Source: Desulfolutivibrio sulfoxidireducens (GTDB lineage: Bacteria; Desulfobacterota; Desulfovibrionia; Desulfovibrionales; Desulfovibrionaceae). From it: a DNA stretch of 64,000 bases. The stretch lies in assembly GCF_013376475.1 (NCBI RefSeq), contig NZ_CP045508.1, forward strand, positions 1,795,501-1,859,500. Direction: 5' to 3'. The notes beneath the pieces were generated by a model. That model made no database searches. It was not told the DNA's origin and worked only from the letters and a program-made list of their open reading frames with translations. The first letter of the stretch is position 1; each line of letters opens with the position of its first letter. Positions 9,101 to 14,797 of the stretch are shown in pieces. The position numbers and the translations under genes were made by a program.

Positions 9101-9572
9101 GCCGAGCGAGCGTTCGGATCCGGAGTTGTCCATCGCCGTGCCGGCCCGGATACCGGAAGGCTACGTGGCCGACCCCAAGGATCGCCTGCGGCTTTACAAA
9201 GCCCTGTCCTCGGCTCACAATGAATCGGACCTGGCGGAACGTGCCGCCGAGATACGGGACCGGTACGGCGCCTTGCCCGAGGAACTGGAGAATTTCATCT
9301 CGGTGTTGGCCCTCAAGCAGGTTTTGGCCAGACTCCAGGTGGCCAAGGCCGACGTGACCGCCGCCAAGCTCTCCCTTTCCTGGGAGGGGCGTCCCGGGGT
9401 GGTGACTCCGGAAAGCCTGGTGGCCTTTGTGGGCACCCGGGGGGACCGGGCCAAGCTGGTGCCTCCGGCCAGGCTGGAGATGCGTCTTTGCGGGGAGGGC
9501 CTTCGCGCCGGACTTGCCGGCGCGGCGGCGGAACTGTCGCTTTTGAGCCAGACAAGCCCTGGGTCACTGTGA
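6114..9572 (+). CDS. mfd: Transcription-repair coupling factor Mfd
   Basis: About 1,152 residues, the normal length for Mfd, the ATP-driven translocase that removes stalled RNA polymerase from DNA lesions and recruits UvrA. The order is N-terminal UvrB-like region (YKSGPGTLAFLAAEIL), polymerase-interacting domain (DLVVHRDYGLARFDGL), then SF2 motor with Walker A GDVGFGKTE, DEEQ box (LILDEEQRFG), TATPIPRTL, and the TRG motif region (VFWVHNRVRG, VAMAHGQM). The C-terminal autoinhibitory domain is present. A TTG at 6114 with GAAGGAG ending at 6104 is the preferred start; an in-frame ATG at 6069 adds 15 basic residues without a good ribosome site. The stop overlaps the next gene's start, implying co-expression with the folding-factor genes. 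Confidence 0.97.
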   Translation: MEYPFEVKDFLKGRGESIGVYKSGPGTLAFLAAEILASGTSVVVVVPGAPELSRLRALFSLLLPSDADPSRTSPWRALPAYPSSVPSIQAWAARFSFLHFATATSRPRLCLFPVDNLLPKWPPRKVIEESSFELSVGEEMSRELLLEQAALWGYRRLPMVESPGEAAARGDVVDIFAPGYAWPLRFEFFGDTIEHIRCFDPATQRSQAELARVALLPVAPAVITDASRRDAMELWESMAMTGELRREAQSALIRKIEAGDGGIWPGLFYEKPTALTDHLPKDAVYILYEASRLRSRLEEVEFGWRRFLDAEAQAQGFGWPGPRLCWPGGMARKMWLAGRQILFEELVLGHGKHGPDMPEKAVERFSDLFWKPGEDKRPWSALMAGLRDWAVSRRQVVLSFHGERSRTKFLKMIDHEGIFPSTRYHPDASGLFALVSPLRQGMDLAWNRTLILAEDVLRPESEEDSGRSARLRGFQGVASQDEIAMGDLVVHRDYGLARFDGLARMTVDSAGGDYLLLHFDGEDRLYVPVDRLSLIQKFKGPEGLDPALDRLGGNRWKMGREKAQKAIEKIARDLVEMYAYRKVAKGYAYGPLNELYWEFEAGFGFEETPDQEKAIAEVLADMERPEPMDRLVCGDVGFGKTEVALRAAFRAVLDGKQVVMMCPTTVLAEQHFQNFSKRLDDFPVRVGMLSRFVPPRRQKMVTEGVRKGEIDILIGTHRLLSKDVEAPRLGLLILDEEQRFGVKHKEKLKALRKNIDVLTLTATPIPRTLQLSLSGIRGLSVIETPPPERKAVETVLVERDPDFLRSVLRRELERQGQVFWVHNRVRGLEETTAFVKRLVPEARVAMAHGQMPETALEKAMHEFWHGEIDVLVCTAIIESGLDFPRANTLVVDQAQMFGLGQLYQLRGRVGRSSLQAFAYFVVPSLDGIPELARKRLRVVQDMDYLGAGFQVAMEDLRLRGAGNILGEVQSGHISRIGLDMFLEMLDEEVRRLRGEPPSERSDPELSIAVPARIPEGYVADPKDRLRLYKALSSAHNESDLAERAAEIRDRYGALPEELENFISVLALKQVLARLQVAKADVTAAKLSLSWEGRPGVVTPESLVAFVGTRGDRAKLVPPARLEMRLCGEGLRAGLAGAAAELSLLSQTSPGSL

Positions 9573-11224
9573 GAACGATGATCTTTTTGACGCGGTTGTT
9601 CCTGTCGGTGGCGGTCTTATGGGCCGCGACCCTGGTTGGCGGCTGCGACCGGCCCAAGGACGAGCCCGGAGTGGTGGCCACGGTCAACGGCCGTCCCGTG
9701 ACCCTGGGCCAACTCGAGTTTCACCAGGACCTGCGCGGCATGGGCCTGGTGGCCACGGAGAACCCCACCGTGGACAGGCTCAGACGGGATTACGGCCGGA
9801 TCATGGCCGACCTGATCATTCAGGAACTGGTGCTTGAGGACCTGGCCAAGGCCGGACTCGGGGTGTCCGAGGCCGACGTGGCCGGGCTCGAGGCCCGGGT
9901 CCGGGCCGACTATCCCGGGGATGCCTTCGACCGCATGCTTTTCGAGGAGAATATCGATCCCGCCCAGTGGCGGAAAAGCCTGGTGTCCCGGATCGCCCTG
10001 GAGAAATTCGTCTCAAGCATCCTCAATGATCGGGTCAAGGTCGACGTCCAGGAGGCCGCCGACTATTACAAGGAGCATGTGGCCGACTTCAAAAGACCGG
10101 CCATGGTGACGTTTCGTCTGGTGCGTGGTCCGGACAAGAAACAGGTGGAGCGGGCGTTGCGGGACTGGGAGGCGGGCGGGACGGCCTCCGGCCAAGCCGC
10201 GCCGGATGCGGCCGTAGTCCGCGAGGTGCGCCTTCCCCGGGACGATGTGCCCGGGCCGTGGCGGGACATCCTGGGAAAATTGCGGCCCGGCCAGACCAGT
10301 CCCGTCATGGAAGGGAAAAAGGAGGCCGTGGCCCTGGTCCTTGTCGGGGAGACTCCGGCCATGGTACTCGACCCGGCTGCGGCCTATCCGTTGGTGGAAA
10401 GGGTTCTTTTGGAAAAAAAACGCAACGAGGCCTTTGCCGCGTGGTTGGCCGGGGCCGTGTCCGCGGCCGACGTCAGGGTGAGTTCGCATCTTTTACGGGC
10501 CGACGCGGGCCTGGACTCGGAGGTTCCGTCGCCGGACATCCTGGAAAAGGAGTTCCCCGGCGTGGGCGACATGGATGGTGAACATGCCGCCAGGCTGGCT
10601 GTTTCCGATCAGATGTCCAAGAAATTCGTCGAGCGCTTTCCCGAACGTTCCGGACAGGCGGCGCGGGAGGGGAGCGGCCCGCCTGTGGCGGCCACAGCCG
10701 GGGACGGCGGGGCGCCGCCCGCCTCCCAGGCGCTCGTTCCCGACATGGCGCCTGTCTTGGATCAACGGATTCTGCCGGACCCCGGTCAATCCGCGTCCGA
10801 CCCGGACCAGGCCGCCTCCCGGCCCGGGAACGGCCCGGTGGTCGAGGTCCCGGATCACGTTTCGGACGCGATCCCACAGCCGGCGGAGACGGCGAATCCG
10901 TCCCCGCCGAACGTCCCGCCCCCCGCCACGGCGGGGAGCCCTGTCCAGCCGTCGCGGACCGGGGCGACGCCGTCGCCGGCCGCGTCGGTCGGACCGGGAA
11001 AGGTGGAATTTCTGGCCAACAAGGCCAGTTGGATCATCTTCAAGGTGGACGACGGGCAGGAAGAGCGGGTGTACGTCAAGGGCGGAAAGGCCCATACTGT
11101 GGCCTTCAAGGAAAAGCTCGCGGTTCGTCTGGGCAGCCCGAGTGATATTACCTACCGCTACGACGGTCGGGAACAGCGGGTGGAATCGTCCTCCCGGGAC
11201 GTGAAGACCCTGGAGTTTCCCTGA
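9569..11224 (+). CDS. SurA-like lipoprotein fused to RodZ-type C-terminal domain
   Basis: A 551-residue predicted lipoprotein. The signal segment ends in a lipobox (TLVGGC), followed by CDRPKDEPG. Residues about 35-200 match the SurA/PrsA-type chaperone N domain (VATVNGRPVTLGQLEF, a long helical region, VQEAADYYKEHVADF). The following PpiC-like stretch (VTFRLVRGPD) lacks the GGDLG signature, so isomerase activity is doubtful. A long Pro/Ala/Ser linker then leads to a C-terminal domain (VEFLANKASWIIFKVDDG ... VKTLEFP) that closely resembles the two extracytoplasmic domains of the RodZ-like protein at 12543-13928. GTG at 9569 overlaps the mfd stop; ATG at 9578 is the alternative start. Confidence 0.85.
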   Translation: MRTMIFLTRLFLSVAVLWAATLVGGCDRPKDEPGVVATVNGRPVTLGQLEFHQDLRGMGLVATENPTVDRLRRDYGRIMADLIIQELVLEDLAKAGLGVSEADVAGLEARVRADYPGDAFDRMLFEENIDPAQWRKSLVSRIALEKFVSSILNDRVKVDVQEAADYYKEHVADFKRPAMVTFRLVRGPDKKQVERALRDWEAGGTASGQAAPDAAVVREVRLPRDDVPGPWRDILGKLRPGQTSPVMEGKKEAVALVLVGETPAMVLDPAAAYPLVERVLLEKKRNEAFAAWLAGAVSAADVRVSSHLLRADAGLDSEVPSPDILEKEFPGVGDMDGEHAARLAVSDQMSKKFVERFPERSGQAAREGSGPPVAATAGDGGAPPASQALVPDMAPVLDQRILPDPGQSASDPDQAASRPGNGPVVEVPDHVSDAIPQPAETANPSPPNVPPPATAGSPVQPSRTGATPSPAASVGPGKVEFLANKASWIIFKVDDGQEERVYVKGGKAHTVAFKEKLAVRLGSPSDITYRYDGREQRVESSSRDVKTLEFP

Positions 11225-11257
11225 GGTGAAGGCGGGTTCAGGCCCAAGCCGGCGAGA

Positions 11258-11286
11258 TTGCCTGCGTGACCGAAAGCGTCTATAAA
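11258..11286 (+). promoter_or_regulatory. Putative sigma-70 promoter of the surA-rodZ unit
   Basis: TTGCCT (11258-11263), a 17-bp spacer and TATAAA (11281-11286) lie about 125 bases upstream of the SurA-type gene. Spacing is ideal and the -10 box is five of six. Confidence 0.55.
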
Positions 11287-11413
11287 CACCCGGATGTCTC
11301 TTCACGGATGTGAAGCGGCGACGAGGCACGGGGCGCAACGGCATCGCCCGATTTCGGAGAACACTCGAACAGAAGCGGTCGCGCCAACATGGTCCGGCCT
11401 GTCGGAGGATATA

Positions 11414-12403
11414 GTGTCCCGCGTCTTTTTCCCCCTCGTCCTGGTGGTGTTGGTTCTGGCCTTTTCGACGCAGGCCCGTTCCGTGGAACTGGTGGACAAA
11501 GTGGTGGCCATGGTCAATGGCCAGATCATCACCTTGTTCGAGCTTAATTCCAAGGTGGAAAAGCTGCTGTCGAAGACCGAAGGAATAAGCCTCTCGCCCA
11601 AGGATCCGGAATACGCGGAACTGCAGCGCCGCATTCTGGATTCCATGATCAATGACATATTGCTGAAGCAGGCCGCCGCTAAATTGAAAATAACCGTTTC
11701 CGAAACTGAAATTTCGGCCAAGATTAATGAAATAAAGAAAGACAACAAGATGACGGAGACGCAATTTCGAGAACAATTGGCCAAGGAAGGCCTGACGCGA
11801 AAGGAGTTCGAACAGAGTCTCGAGACGGAAGCCATAAAACACCAGATTGTCGGGTACATGGTCAATAAGCGGATCCTTGTGACGGATGACGAGTTGCGCG
11901 CGTATTATGACCAGATGGGCGGCGATATTCCGGAAGCCAGGGAGACCTTGACGCGCAAGACGCCGGGGACTATCGGGTTTCTCATGGTCGCCTCGGCGAC
12001 CGAGGCCGAGGCCTTGCGGAAAAAGATCGCCGCCGGGCAGATCAGCTTCGCCGATGCGGCCCGCAAGTTCTCCATTGGTCCGGGAAAGGACCAGGGCGGC
12101 GACCTGGGCGACGTGTCCATCGAAGATTTGGCGCCGCCCCTGCGCCAGGCCCTTCAGGCCGTGCCCGCCGGCGAGGTCACCAAGCCGGTGTCCCTCGACG
12201 GCAAGGCGGTTCTTCTGGTCCGCAAGACCGGCGGCGATGCCCCGCCTGTCGCGGCCGAACCCGTTGCCGCTCGCGGTTCCCAGTCGTTTGAGCAGGCTCG
12301 GGACAGGGTGTACGACATGCTCTACCGCGAAAAGTTCGAGAAGCTTTTTCAGGAATACATGGCGACGTTGCGAGCCAAAGCGGTCGTGGACGTCCGGCTG
12401 TAA
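11414..12403 (+). CDS. surA: SurA-type periplasmic peptidyl-prolyl isomerase
   Basis: A 329-residue exported chaperone/isomerase. A signal peptide (FPLVLVVLVLAFSTQARS) precedes the SurA N domain (VELVDKVVAMVNGQIITLFEL), a helical substrate-binding region, and one parvulin (PpiC) domain with the intact signature SFADAARKFSIGPG followed by GGDLG and a closing LLVRK strand. Canonical E. coli SurA has two parvulin domains, so this is a shorter single-parvulin version. GTG at 11414 is chosen because GGAGG lies at 11404-11408 and the signal peptide starts there. It probably helps outer-membrane proteins fold, working with the preceding lipoprotein. Confidence 0.92.
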   Translation: MSRVFFPLVLVVLVLAFSTQARSVELVDKVVAMVNGQIITLFELNSKVEKLLSKTEGISLSPKDPEYAELQRRILDSMINDILLKQAAAKLKITVSETEISAKINEIKKDNKMTETQFREQLAKEGLTRKEFEQSLETEAIKHQIVGYMVNKRILVTDDELRAYYDQMGGDIPEARETLTRKTPGTIGFLMVASATEAEALRKKIAAGQISFADAARKFSIGPGKDQGGDLGDVSIEDLAPPLRQALQAVPAGEVTKPVSLDGKAVLLVRKTGGDAPPVAAEPVAARGSQSFEQARDRVYDMLYREKFEKLFQEYMATLRAKAVVDVRL

Positions 12404-12542
12404 CGTCGAGCGCCTCTCCCCGGAGAGGCGGACCGTGAGGCCTGTCGTTACGGTCTGTCCGTGACGGCTGGCGCAACGACATGACGCCGGGATGAAGCGG
12501 CCTTTCGTCACGCACGCTTTCACCTTCGGGGAGTAATCGGAT

Positions 12543-13928
12543 ATGGATTTACGCGAATTGGGTGCCTTGTTCAAAGAGGAACGGGAACGTCGCGGGCTTT
12601 CGCACAACGACGTCATCGATAAAATCAAGATCGGTCGGGCCTGTCTCCTGGCCATCGAAGAAGGCGACGAGAGCGGCATGCCACATCCGGTCTACGCCAA
12701 GGGGTTCATCAAAAACTACGCGAAGTTGCTTGATCTCGACCCGGAAGAGGTCGGAGACGCCTTTTCCAGATCCCTCGGAACAATCCCGGAATCCAGGATC
12801 GCCACGCAGCATGAACTGAGCGAACCGGTGTCCGCGCCCAGAGGCTTTTCATTTGGCGGCGGTCCGTTTCGGTATGTCCTGGTTGGCCTTGTTCTTCTTT
12901 TGGTCGTGGCCGGCGTGCTCTGGTCTTTTTCCCTGCCGCCCTTTGAATTTTCCGCCTTCCTGGCGCCCTCGCCGGCGGTCGGACCGGCCAGTTCCGGAGA
13001 CGCCGGTTCGCCCGTTCCGGAGACGCCGCCATCCTCGCCCCAGGCGGGCAAGTCCGGAGGGGGCGCTCCGTTGGCCGGCGGTTCGGAACAGACAGGTTCG
13101 GCCGGCATCCTGCCTGTGGTCGAACCGGCCCCGCCTGTTCCCATAAAGCCCCTGCAACCGGCCCCGGAAGCGGCGCAATCCGCCCCGCCCGTCCCCGAGA
13201 CCACCGCCCAGGCCAGGACCGCGGTCACTTCCCCGGACGCCGAGGAGCCGGCCGATCCGTCGTTGCTCCCGGATGTCGTGCATGGGGAAACCGGCGCCCA
13301 CAGCGTGTCCATCGTCGCCACCGAGGAATCCTGGATTGATGTCGCGGCGGACGGAGGTCCCCCCAAGGGGGTCATGCTGACCAAGGGCAAGCGGTTCATT
13401 GGCCGGTTCAACGAATCGCTTCTGGTGCGTCTGGGCAATGCCGCCGGGGTGAAAATCCAGTACGACGACAAGGACTATCCCCTGCAGGCGAATCCGGGGG
13501 AGGTCAAGACGCTCAAGTTCGTGGCCAAGCAGAACGCCGCGCCAGCCACGTCCACGCCCCAGGCGAACCAGACCGCCTCCTCCACCGCGCCGGCGAAGTC
13601 TCCCGCGGCCCCGGCCGCGCCGAAGACGGAACCGACGATGCCCGCCTCGACACCGGCCGCCGCCCCGGAGGCCGCCGCGCGTCCCGACGGCATGCGTCAG
13701 GTCGAGATCGTCGGCACGGACGGCAGTTGGGTCATCGTCATTCCCGACGGCGGCAAGCCCAGGGAGATCTTCGTCAAAAAGGGCCAGACCATCACCGAGC
13801 CCTACAAGGACACCATCGAGATCAAGCTCGGCAATCCAAGCAGCGTGCTCTTCCGTCACGAGGGCCAGGAATATCCCATGAGCACCCAGCAGGGTGAGAA
13901 AAAGTCCGTGCGTTTTCCCAACCCCTGA
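12543..13928 (+). CDS. RodZ-like HTH membrane protein with two C-terminal domains
   Basis: A 461-residue single-pass membrane protein. Residues 1-80 form a RodZ-type cytoplasmic helix-turn-helix (LGALFKEERERRGLSHNDV ... YAKGFIKNYAKLLDLDPEEV), which in RodZ binds MreB. A transmembrane helix (YVLVGLVLLLVVAGVLWSF) lies near residues 105-123, followed by a Pro/Ala-rich linker. Two tandem copies of the RodZ C-terminal domain (DUF4115-like) follow: one starting SVSIVATEESWIDV and ending VKTLKF, the other starting QVEIVGTDGSWVIV and ending KSVRFP. Most RodZ proteins have one, so the duplication is notable. Role in rod shape and elongasome assembly is inferred. Confidence 0.88.
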   Translation: MDLRELGALFKEERERRGLSHNDVIDKIKIGRACLLAIEEGDESGMPHPVYAKGFIKNYAKLLDLDPEEVGDAFSRSLGTIPESRIATQHELSEPVSAPRGFSFGGGPFRYVLVGLVLLLVVAGVLWSFSLPPFEFSAFLAPSPAVGPASSGDAGSPVPETPPSSPQAGKSGGGAPLAGGSEQTGSAGILPVVEPAPPVPIKPLQPAPEAAQSAPPVPETTAQARTAVTSPDAEEPADPSLLPDVVHGETGAHSVSIVATEESWIDVAADGGPPKGVMLTKGKRFIGRFNESLLVRLGNAAGVKIQYDDKDYPLQANPGEVKTLKFVAKQNAAPATSTPQANQTASSTAPAKSPAAPAAPKTEPTMPASTPAAAPEAAARPDGMRQVEIVGTDGSWVIVIPDGGKPREIFVKKGQTITEPYKDTIEIKLGNPSSVLFRHEGQEYPMSTQQGEKKSVRFPNP

Positions 13929-14053
13929 CCCGGGAGCCTCACCGGGATGGATGGGCGCGCGGTGGCGGGCATGGAGTGGATGAGCGGGCGAGATGCCGCG
14001 ATATTTCGCGGGCCGGAGCGGGCTTCGGTTTGCGGGGGCGCAAGGAGCGGGGA

Positions 14054-14797
14054 ATGGAGTTTTCCGAAAAGGCTCTCGTTCTGAGGGTGGGCCGTTTTCG
14101 GGAAATAGACGCCTGGGTGCGCCTTTTTTCCCCGTCGCGCGGAATGTACACCGCGTTCGCCTTCGGCGGGTGCCGGAGCCGCAGGCGGTTTTGCGGCTGT
14201 CTGGACGTCTTTAATCACGTCCACTTCAAGGTCAAAACCGGGCGCGCCTACCATACCCTGCTTGAAGGACGGTTGGTCAACGGCCATGGACGCCTGCGCG
14301 CCGAACCCGGCCGCCTGGGCATGGCCGTGAATTGCCTGAAGTTTTTCGAGGCTGTGGAGGTCGGTCCGCACGGGGCCCGGGCGGCCCATGACCTGCTGTT
14401 GGAGGCCCTGGCGACGCTTACGGCCGAGACCGCGCCGTCCCGGCTTTTTCCCCTCTATTTTCGGGCGAAGGTGGCCTGCGATCAGGGTTTTTTCCCGCCG
14501 CTCGCGGCGTGTCACGGCTGTGGCGCGCCCAGCGAGGATATTCCCTGGGCCGTGTTCCACGTGGAAGAGGGGCGGCTTTTGTGTCCCGCCTGTCCGCGTC
14601 CGGTCCGGGGCACGTTCGTGCGGCTTGGCCGGGACGCCATGAGGCTTCTTTCGGATGTGCGGAGCGCGGGGCCGGCCGACTGGGGCGGGTTCGAGCCGTC
14701 CCCCGGCGCGGCGGGGGAGTTCTCCCGACTGCTGGATCGTTTTGTGACCTACCACCTGGGGCTTTCCTGGGAGCATGGAACCTTCGTTAAAAACTGA
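14054..14797 (+). CDS. recO: DNA repair protein RecO
   Basis: A 247-residue RecO, the RecA-loading mediator of the RecFOR pathway. The N-terminal OB fold ([33 protein letters not shown]) is followed by the helical domain and a zinc finger of two CxxC pairs (CHGCG and CPAC, near residues 156 and 180). ATG at 14054 is preceded by AAGGAG at 14042-14047 and matches the family start. It lies just upstream of glyQ, with about 135 bases between. Confidence 0.93.

Follow-up and report, generated by a model that had tools for sequence, protein, structure and literature searches.

In Desulfolutivibrio sulfoxidireducens, a foldase-like lipoprotein encoded two genes upstream of rodZ ends in RodZ_C, the domain that RodZ itself carries there in two copies. 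The cluster lies in a window of 64,000 nucleotides (contig NZ_CP045508.1, positions 1,795,501 to 1,859,500), by which we mean the whole stretch of DNA analysed; the features are listed in Table 1. Profile searches, a domain tree, structure models and a survey of related genomes support both the homology of the three domains and the view that this architecture is unusual. The RodZ_C domain is known. For the architecture, a foldase lipoprotein with a RodZ_C tail, no description was found among the matches listed in the open literature of PubMed Central, preprints excluded. The best explanation of the whole, to which we assign a probability of roughly 0.5, is that a RodZ_C domain of the type of the second RodZ copy (D2) was gained by the foldase lipoprotein and that RodZ_C was doubled in RodZ, the tail serving to dock the foldase at the Rod complex.

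Table 1. Features of the lipoprotein-SurA-RodZ cluster in the window and of two comparable lipoproteins of genus g51 (locus coordinates)
Feature	Position	Strand	Basis and remarks
ORF upstream of the lipoprotein gene, 1167 aa	6069..9572	+	ORF list
Foldase-like lipoprotein, 548 aa	9578..11224	+	ORF list, Pfam, AF2 model
Lipoprotein signal peptide, lipobox LVGG↓C			by eye
Lipoprotein linker, disordered	10496..10990	+	pLDDT <50 almost throughout (AF2)
Tail (RodZ_C of the lipoprotein)	10991..11221	+	PF13464, 25.6 bits scanned alone; eight strands in AF2 model
SurA-like chaperone gene	11414..12403	+	between lipoprotein gene and rodZ; start GTG 11414 after GGAGGA, by eye
rodZ	12543..13928	+	HTH_25 (residues 10-70), TM ~108-130 (by eye), Pro/Ala linkers, two RodZ_C
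RodZ_C domain 1 (D1) of RodZ	13311..13514	+	47.3 bits scanned alone; in starred clade of 16 D1 copies
RodZ_C domain 2 (D2) of RodZ	13707..13895	+	31.8 bits scanned alone; nearest kin of the tail in the tree
g51 lipoprotein, terminal RodZ_C	L141:1486-2571	-	30.0 bits, over cut-off
g51 lipoprotein, terminal RodZ_C	L142:724-1710	+	23.2 bits, just below cut-off

The lipoprotein is composed, in this order, of a signal peptide, SurA_N-like helices, a Rotamase_2 domain, a disordered linker rich in proline and alanine and the C-terminal RodZ_C domain. Rotamase_2 covers residues 155-264 and scored 39.8 bits in Pfam against a cut-off of 27, while SurA_N_3 reached 18.5 bits, below its cut-off of 27.2, and the protein was not classed as SurA. 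It has the lipobox and the parvulin-type domain of a PrsA-like lipoprotein foldase, and its sequence suggests a putative foldase that probably helps other proteins to fold. The mean pLDDT of its AF2 model was 67.3, with values mostly between 83 and 94 in the foldase part, weaker ones in the loops and about 84 in the tail. Foldseek matched this model with 3rgc, an entry on the SurA-like PEB4/Cj1289 (E 1.6e-10), with SurA (about 1e-8) and with PrsA (about 2e-6), the whole-model TM-scores of these matches being low (TMq up to 0.30). An earlier note on this DNA, made from its letters alone, had described a SurA-like lipoprotein. The model has a SurA-like fold, but the lipoprotein is not the SurA of the cluster, which is the product of a separate, neighbouring gene. 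That product exceeded the Pfam cut-offs for SurA_N_3 (77.7 bits), SurA_N (68 bits) and Rotamase, gave no RodZ_C match in the Pfam scan, and scored 95.5 bits against an NCBIfam SurA cut-off of 394.

The ORF preceding the lipoprotein gene, which we take to be Mfd-like, stops 5 bases ahead of the lipoprotein start, and the two genes are therefore probably co-transcribed. Across positions 9300-14100, one promoter-like site (0.5 in shuffled sequences) and four terminator-like sites (5.1 in shuffled sequences) were found, none above chance. At the other end of the cluster, RodZ matched HTH_25 with 69.2 bits and RodZ_C with 69.6 bits in Pfam and has, with its transmembrane segment recognized by eye, the helix-turn-helix, membrane span and C-terminal RodZ_C of that family. 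Against the NCBIfam equivalog models it scored 40.9 of 375 bits (Streptococcus model) and 28.4 of 208 bits (PRK10856), models that serve lineage-specific naming and do not define RodZ as a whole.

The earlier note had claimed that the end of the lipoprotein and both extracytoplasmic domains of RodZ share one domain. A profile search, as proposed there, identified it as the already catalogued RodZ_C (Pfam PF13464, cut-off 23.9 bits), and scanned alone all three domains exceeded the cut-off. The tail reached 24.7 bits in a six-frame search of the genome and 23.2 bits, just below the cut-off, when the whole lipoprotein was scanned. Among 11 whole tailed lipoproteins, 10 matched RodZ_C at E ≤ 0.1, none with more than the 23.2 bits of the window's, and so none reached 23.9 bits. 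Going by these scores, Pfam sees the tail weakly, and the Pfam profile alone would leave it in doubt. In the whole genome, D1, D2 and the tail were the three matches over the cut-off; a fourth hit, at locus L008, stayed below it with 16.8 bits and is part of a small protein unrelated to these.

Direct comparison of the domains gave ungapped alignments over 72-74 residues, with 30% identity between tail and D2 (E 2e-17) and 33% between tail and D1 (E 2e-13). V5, S13, W14, D20, G22, G32, L47, G48, K72 and F76 are invariant in all three. Among the motifs that had been listed as common, SW[IV], a KG step (read VKGGK, with GG, in the tail) and LG[SN] do occur in each domain; the ending VK[TS]LxF is restricted to the tail and D1, with D2 ending in KKSVRF. 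The lipoprotein domain had been placed at 10990-11221, where it is indeed found, its in-frame start being one base further on. Where 40 of the 42 D1 and single-domain RodZ_C sequences carry a Cys ahead of the Trp, the D1 of the window reads SW (13329-13334).

In AF2 models of the lipoprotein and of the RodZ ectodomain, built from separate alignments of 5 and 7 sequences, tail and D2 each have eight strands in identical order, their starts offset by 310-312 residues. The mean pLDDT of the ectodomain model was 67.7, with about 80 in D1 and about 75 in D2. The tail is accordingly modelled, that is predicted, with the fold of RodZ's own copies, and the unrelated folds that would have spoken against the shared domain did not appear. 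Neither did the objection of low complexity apply: the aligned part is ungapped and modelled as folded, and the biased stretches sit in the linkers. A profile search found no solved RodZ_C structure. That unrelated small beta domains have come to look alike by chance or convergence is very improbable, even with identity this modest over so short a span and whole tailed lipoproteins below the Pfam cut-off. Against it stand the E-value of the ungapped alignment with D2, the match of the isolated tail to Pfam RodZ_C, the equal order and spacing of strands in separate models, and the supported position of the tail among RodZ_C domains in the tree.

This tree comprised 77 domains and 78 columns (17 tails, 16 D1, 16 D2, 26 single copies and 2 domains of genus g51), with loci that duplicate already included genomes left out; its small number of columns and its long branches limit it. 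The tails made up one starred group, as did the D1 and the D2 copies, the tail fell among the RodZ_C domains, and tail and D2 together formed a clade with support of 99/94. AU tests did not reject other groupings: tail with D1 (p 0.083), D1 with D2 (p 0.081) and a joint clade of the three (p 0.238). Since these tests leave other placings within RodZ_C open, the case for a kinship of tail and D2 depends on the support values of a 78-column alignment. Five positions (S14, K31, P51, S52 and V65) set tail and D2 (33 rows) apart from D1 and the single-domain copies (42 rows), which have mostly C, other residues, A, G and L there; S14 replaces C before Trp, and P51 S52 gives PS for mostly AG after LG[NS]. 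The single-domain RodZ of genus g17 (L119) was considered as a direct source of the tail, being the top single copy listed against a tail/D2 profile (68.5 bits), and was rejected on account of its position outside the tail and D2 clade.

The lipoprotein family is present in 190 of 199 sampled genomes of the order, and 194 of the 199 have a RodZ_C match at E ≤ 0.01. Two or three matches were found in 12 genomes, all belonging to the genus of the window (g1) or to Solidesulfovibrio (g6). The statement that RodZ normally carries one such domain holds among the sampled genomes of the order. Second matches in eight further genomes were rejected as additional RodZ_C genes, all being below the cut-off (17.9-21.9 bits). 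Six of these eight loci (L111, L113, L114, L115, L117 and L118), like L008 of the genome under study, encode a small secreted protein with the signature CFDNGD...CEGGFSDGSS; none was obtained at L112 and L116. These proteins probably represent a different family of small beta domains.

The tail was found in all three genomes of the window's genus and in 13 of 14 Solidesulfovibrio genomes. The fourteenth, G201 (69% complete), gave one match with 42% identity in a frame of 67 residues, which may be tail or D2; it was neither read nor included in any tree. RodZ has two RodZ_C domains in each of the 16 tailed genomes read. The survey of Desulfovibrionales that the earlier note had suggested shows tail and doubled RodZ_C going together in all 16. 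In 18 genomes read from 16 other genera, RodZ has one RodZ_C and the lipoprotein none, without exception. The gene order lipoprotein-SurA-RodZ is constant in the clusters read, although contig ends truncate it in two genomes: the G182 contig starts inside the lipoprotein gene, and G200, a Solidesulfovibrio MAG that is 89% complete, has two diverged clusters of this kind on two cut contigs (L131 and L132), reflecting either a mixed bin or a true duplication. In a sample of the class, the tail/D2 profile found matches in 238 of 297 genomes (E ≤ 1e-4). Genomes with at least three matches all belonged to the window's genus or to Solidesulfovibrio, and those with two all to g51. In a sample of the phylum, 154 of 297 genomes had a RodZ_C match; the sole genomes with more than one were two members of the window's genus and G527, in which the two hits are on separate contigs.

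In a tree of SurA computed without the two G200 loci, 15 tailed genomes formed one clade against 18 untailed ones (95/96), which places the doubling of RodZ_C and the acquisition of the tail on a single branch. Copying of RodZ_C within the cluster onto the lipoprotein is well supported by these sequence comparisons, with survey and tree fixing neither the order nor the direction of events. In a comparison with loci L039-L058 and L119-L131, the SurA of the window shares 50-70% identity with its counterparts in the tailed clade, 29-38% with those of other relatives and 47% with that of genus g19, while the lipoprotein foldase domain is about equally distant from Solidesulfovibrio (41-46%) and from other genera (35-44%). 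By these figures the two neighbours seem to evolve at unequal rates.

Selection on the tail was assessed by dN/dS (NG86) in eight genome pairs. The ratios were 0.03-0.21 for the tail, 0.12-0.46 for the foldase domain and 0.30-0.63 for the linker, rough values because dS exceeds 1 in several comparisons, and the tail was lowest in all eight pairs, which share genomes and are not independent. Judged by these ratios, the tail is under purifying selection stronger than that on the foldase domain in every pair. This bears on the idea that recombination inside the cluster simply put the domain onto a neighbouring protein, where it was kept as a stable tail devoid of a specific partner. Recombination would be eased by the closeness of the genes within a single cluster and by the similar composition of their linkers, and the tail occurs in only two of the genera sampled. 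But its presence in 16 of the 17 genomes of both genera (the seventeenth being G201 with its single match), the stronger purifying selection and the retention of the diagnostic residues make such an incidental fusion unlikely.

A second lipoprotein with a terminal RodZ_C domain occurs in genus g51, at loci L141 and L142. It resembles that of the window in its lipobox (by eye), long linker and C-terminal RodZ_C, and differs from it in having no foldase domain found by Pfam and in lying outside the rodZ cluster. RodZ of g51 has one RodZ_C, and the second match was found in two g51 genomes. Since the g51 domain does not group with the window's tail in the domain tree, the combination of lipoprotein, linker and RodZ_C seems, from these sequences, to have had two or more origins within the family.

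The g51 protein is also relevant to what the tail may bind. Tail and D2 could recognize a cell-wall ligand, a glycan or lipid-linked precursor, in place of a protein of the Rod complex, and the tail would then be a wall anchor independent of shape control. A small, all-beta domain, as RodZ_C is in the AF2 models, and an unrelated lipoprotein that ends in it in a genus with single-copy RodZ are in keeping with a general anchoring module, and the five positions common to tail and D2 might serve a ligand that D1 does not bind. We nevertheless regard this as rather improbable, though worth keeping in mind: the tail co-occurs with the doubled RodZ, which points to a RodZ-linked role, and a Foldseek search of the PDB with the RodZ ectodomain model returned nothing at E ≤ 0.001 that would suggest a wall ligand, which is weak evidence. 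In addition, the contacts named for the corresponding E. coli region are proteins, an excerpt of one study (PMC10561026) listing RodZ itself, MreC, MreD and PBP2.

For docking at the Rod complex, the reading we prefer, the course of events may be pictured as follows. As survey and tree support, RodZ gained a second RodZ_C in the ancestor shared by the window's genus and Solidesulfovibrio, and a D2-type copy came to form the end of the PrsA/SurA-like lipoprotein encoded two genes upstream, separated from the foldase part by a long flexible linker. There it would act as a docking module. The lipid would anchor the foldase to a membrane, and the linker, which differs in length and sequence from genome to genome (about 130-215 residues), would give it reach. 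The tail would bind either RodZ's own D2 or the partner of D2, which by analogy with RodZ of E. coli would be MreC, MreD or PBP2, and the docked foldase would act on envelope proteins at sites of new wall. By that analogy the tail is probably a module that brings the foldase to the Rod complex, which suggests that protein folding may be tied to the machine of cell-wall growth. Presence of the Rod machinery fits, since the genome has two MreB matches above 450 bits (PF06723). The tie between lipoprotein and elongasome drawn in the earlier note is a reasonable one; its further link from outer-membrane folding to cell shape goes beyond the evidence, a PrsA-like role for cell-wall enzymes fitting equally well. 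The residue that follows the lipid Cys varies, being D in all three proteins of the window's genus and G, K, L or R in those read from Solidesulfovibrio, so that the lipoprotein may belong to either membrane.

The role of the periplasmic domain of RodZ is poorly settled: as far as an excerpt of one E. coli study (PMC6946637) goes, rod shape can largely be kept without the domain, whose self-contact maps to the disordered part, and both points count against docking. A RodZ_C domain on another envelope protein, kept under selection, offers an approach, in that the binding target of the tail should reveal that of RodZ_C. If docking is true, it puts a foldase at the site of the elongation machinery. 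Until now such a connection has been hinted at for PrsA of Gram-positive bacteria: in an excerpt of the source (PMC12826049), Listeria prsA mutants differ in cell length and in their release of MreC and DivIB. Tentatively, the RodZ ectodomain might be regarded as a portable targeting tag, a D2-type tail bringing the foldase to the Rod complex and coupling the folding of cell-wall enzymes in space to elongation, with g51 as a second, independent use.

Compared with the PrsA lipoproteins, PEB4/Cj1289 and SurA, the lipoprotein of the window has a lipobox as in PrsA (by eye), a SurA_N-like part and one parvulin-type domain, and it departs from them in its long disordered linker, its C-terminal RodZ_C and a SurA_N_3 score below the cut-off. 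Its RodZ, like those of E. coli and B. subtilis with their order HTH_25, TM and RodZ_C, has HTH_25 and RodZ_C over the cut-off and one transmembrane segment (by eye), but it differs from them in carrying two RodZ_C domains instead of one and in scoring far below the lineage-specific NCBIfam cut-offs.
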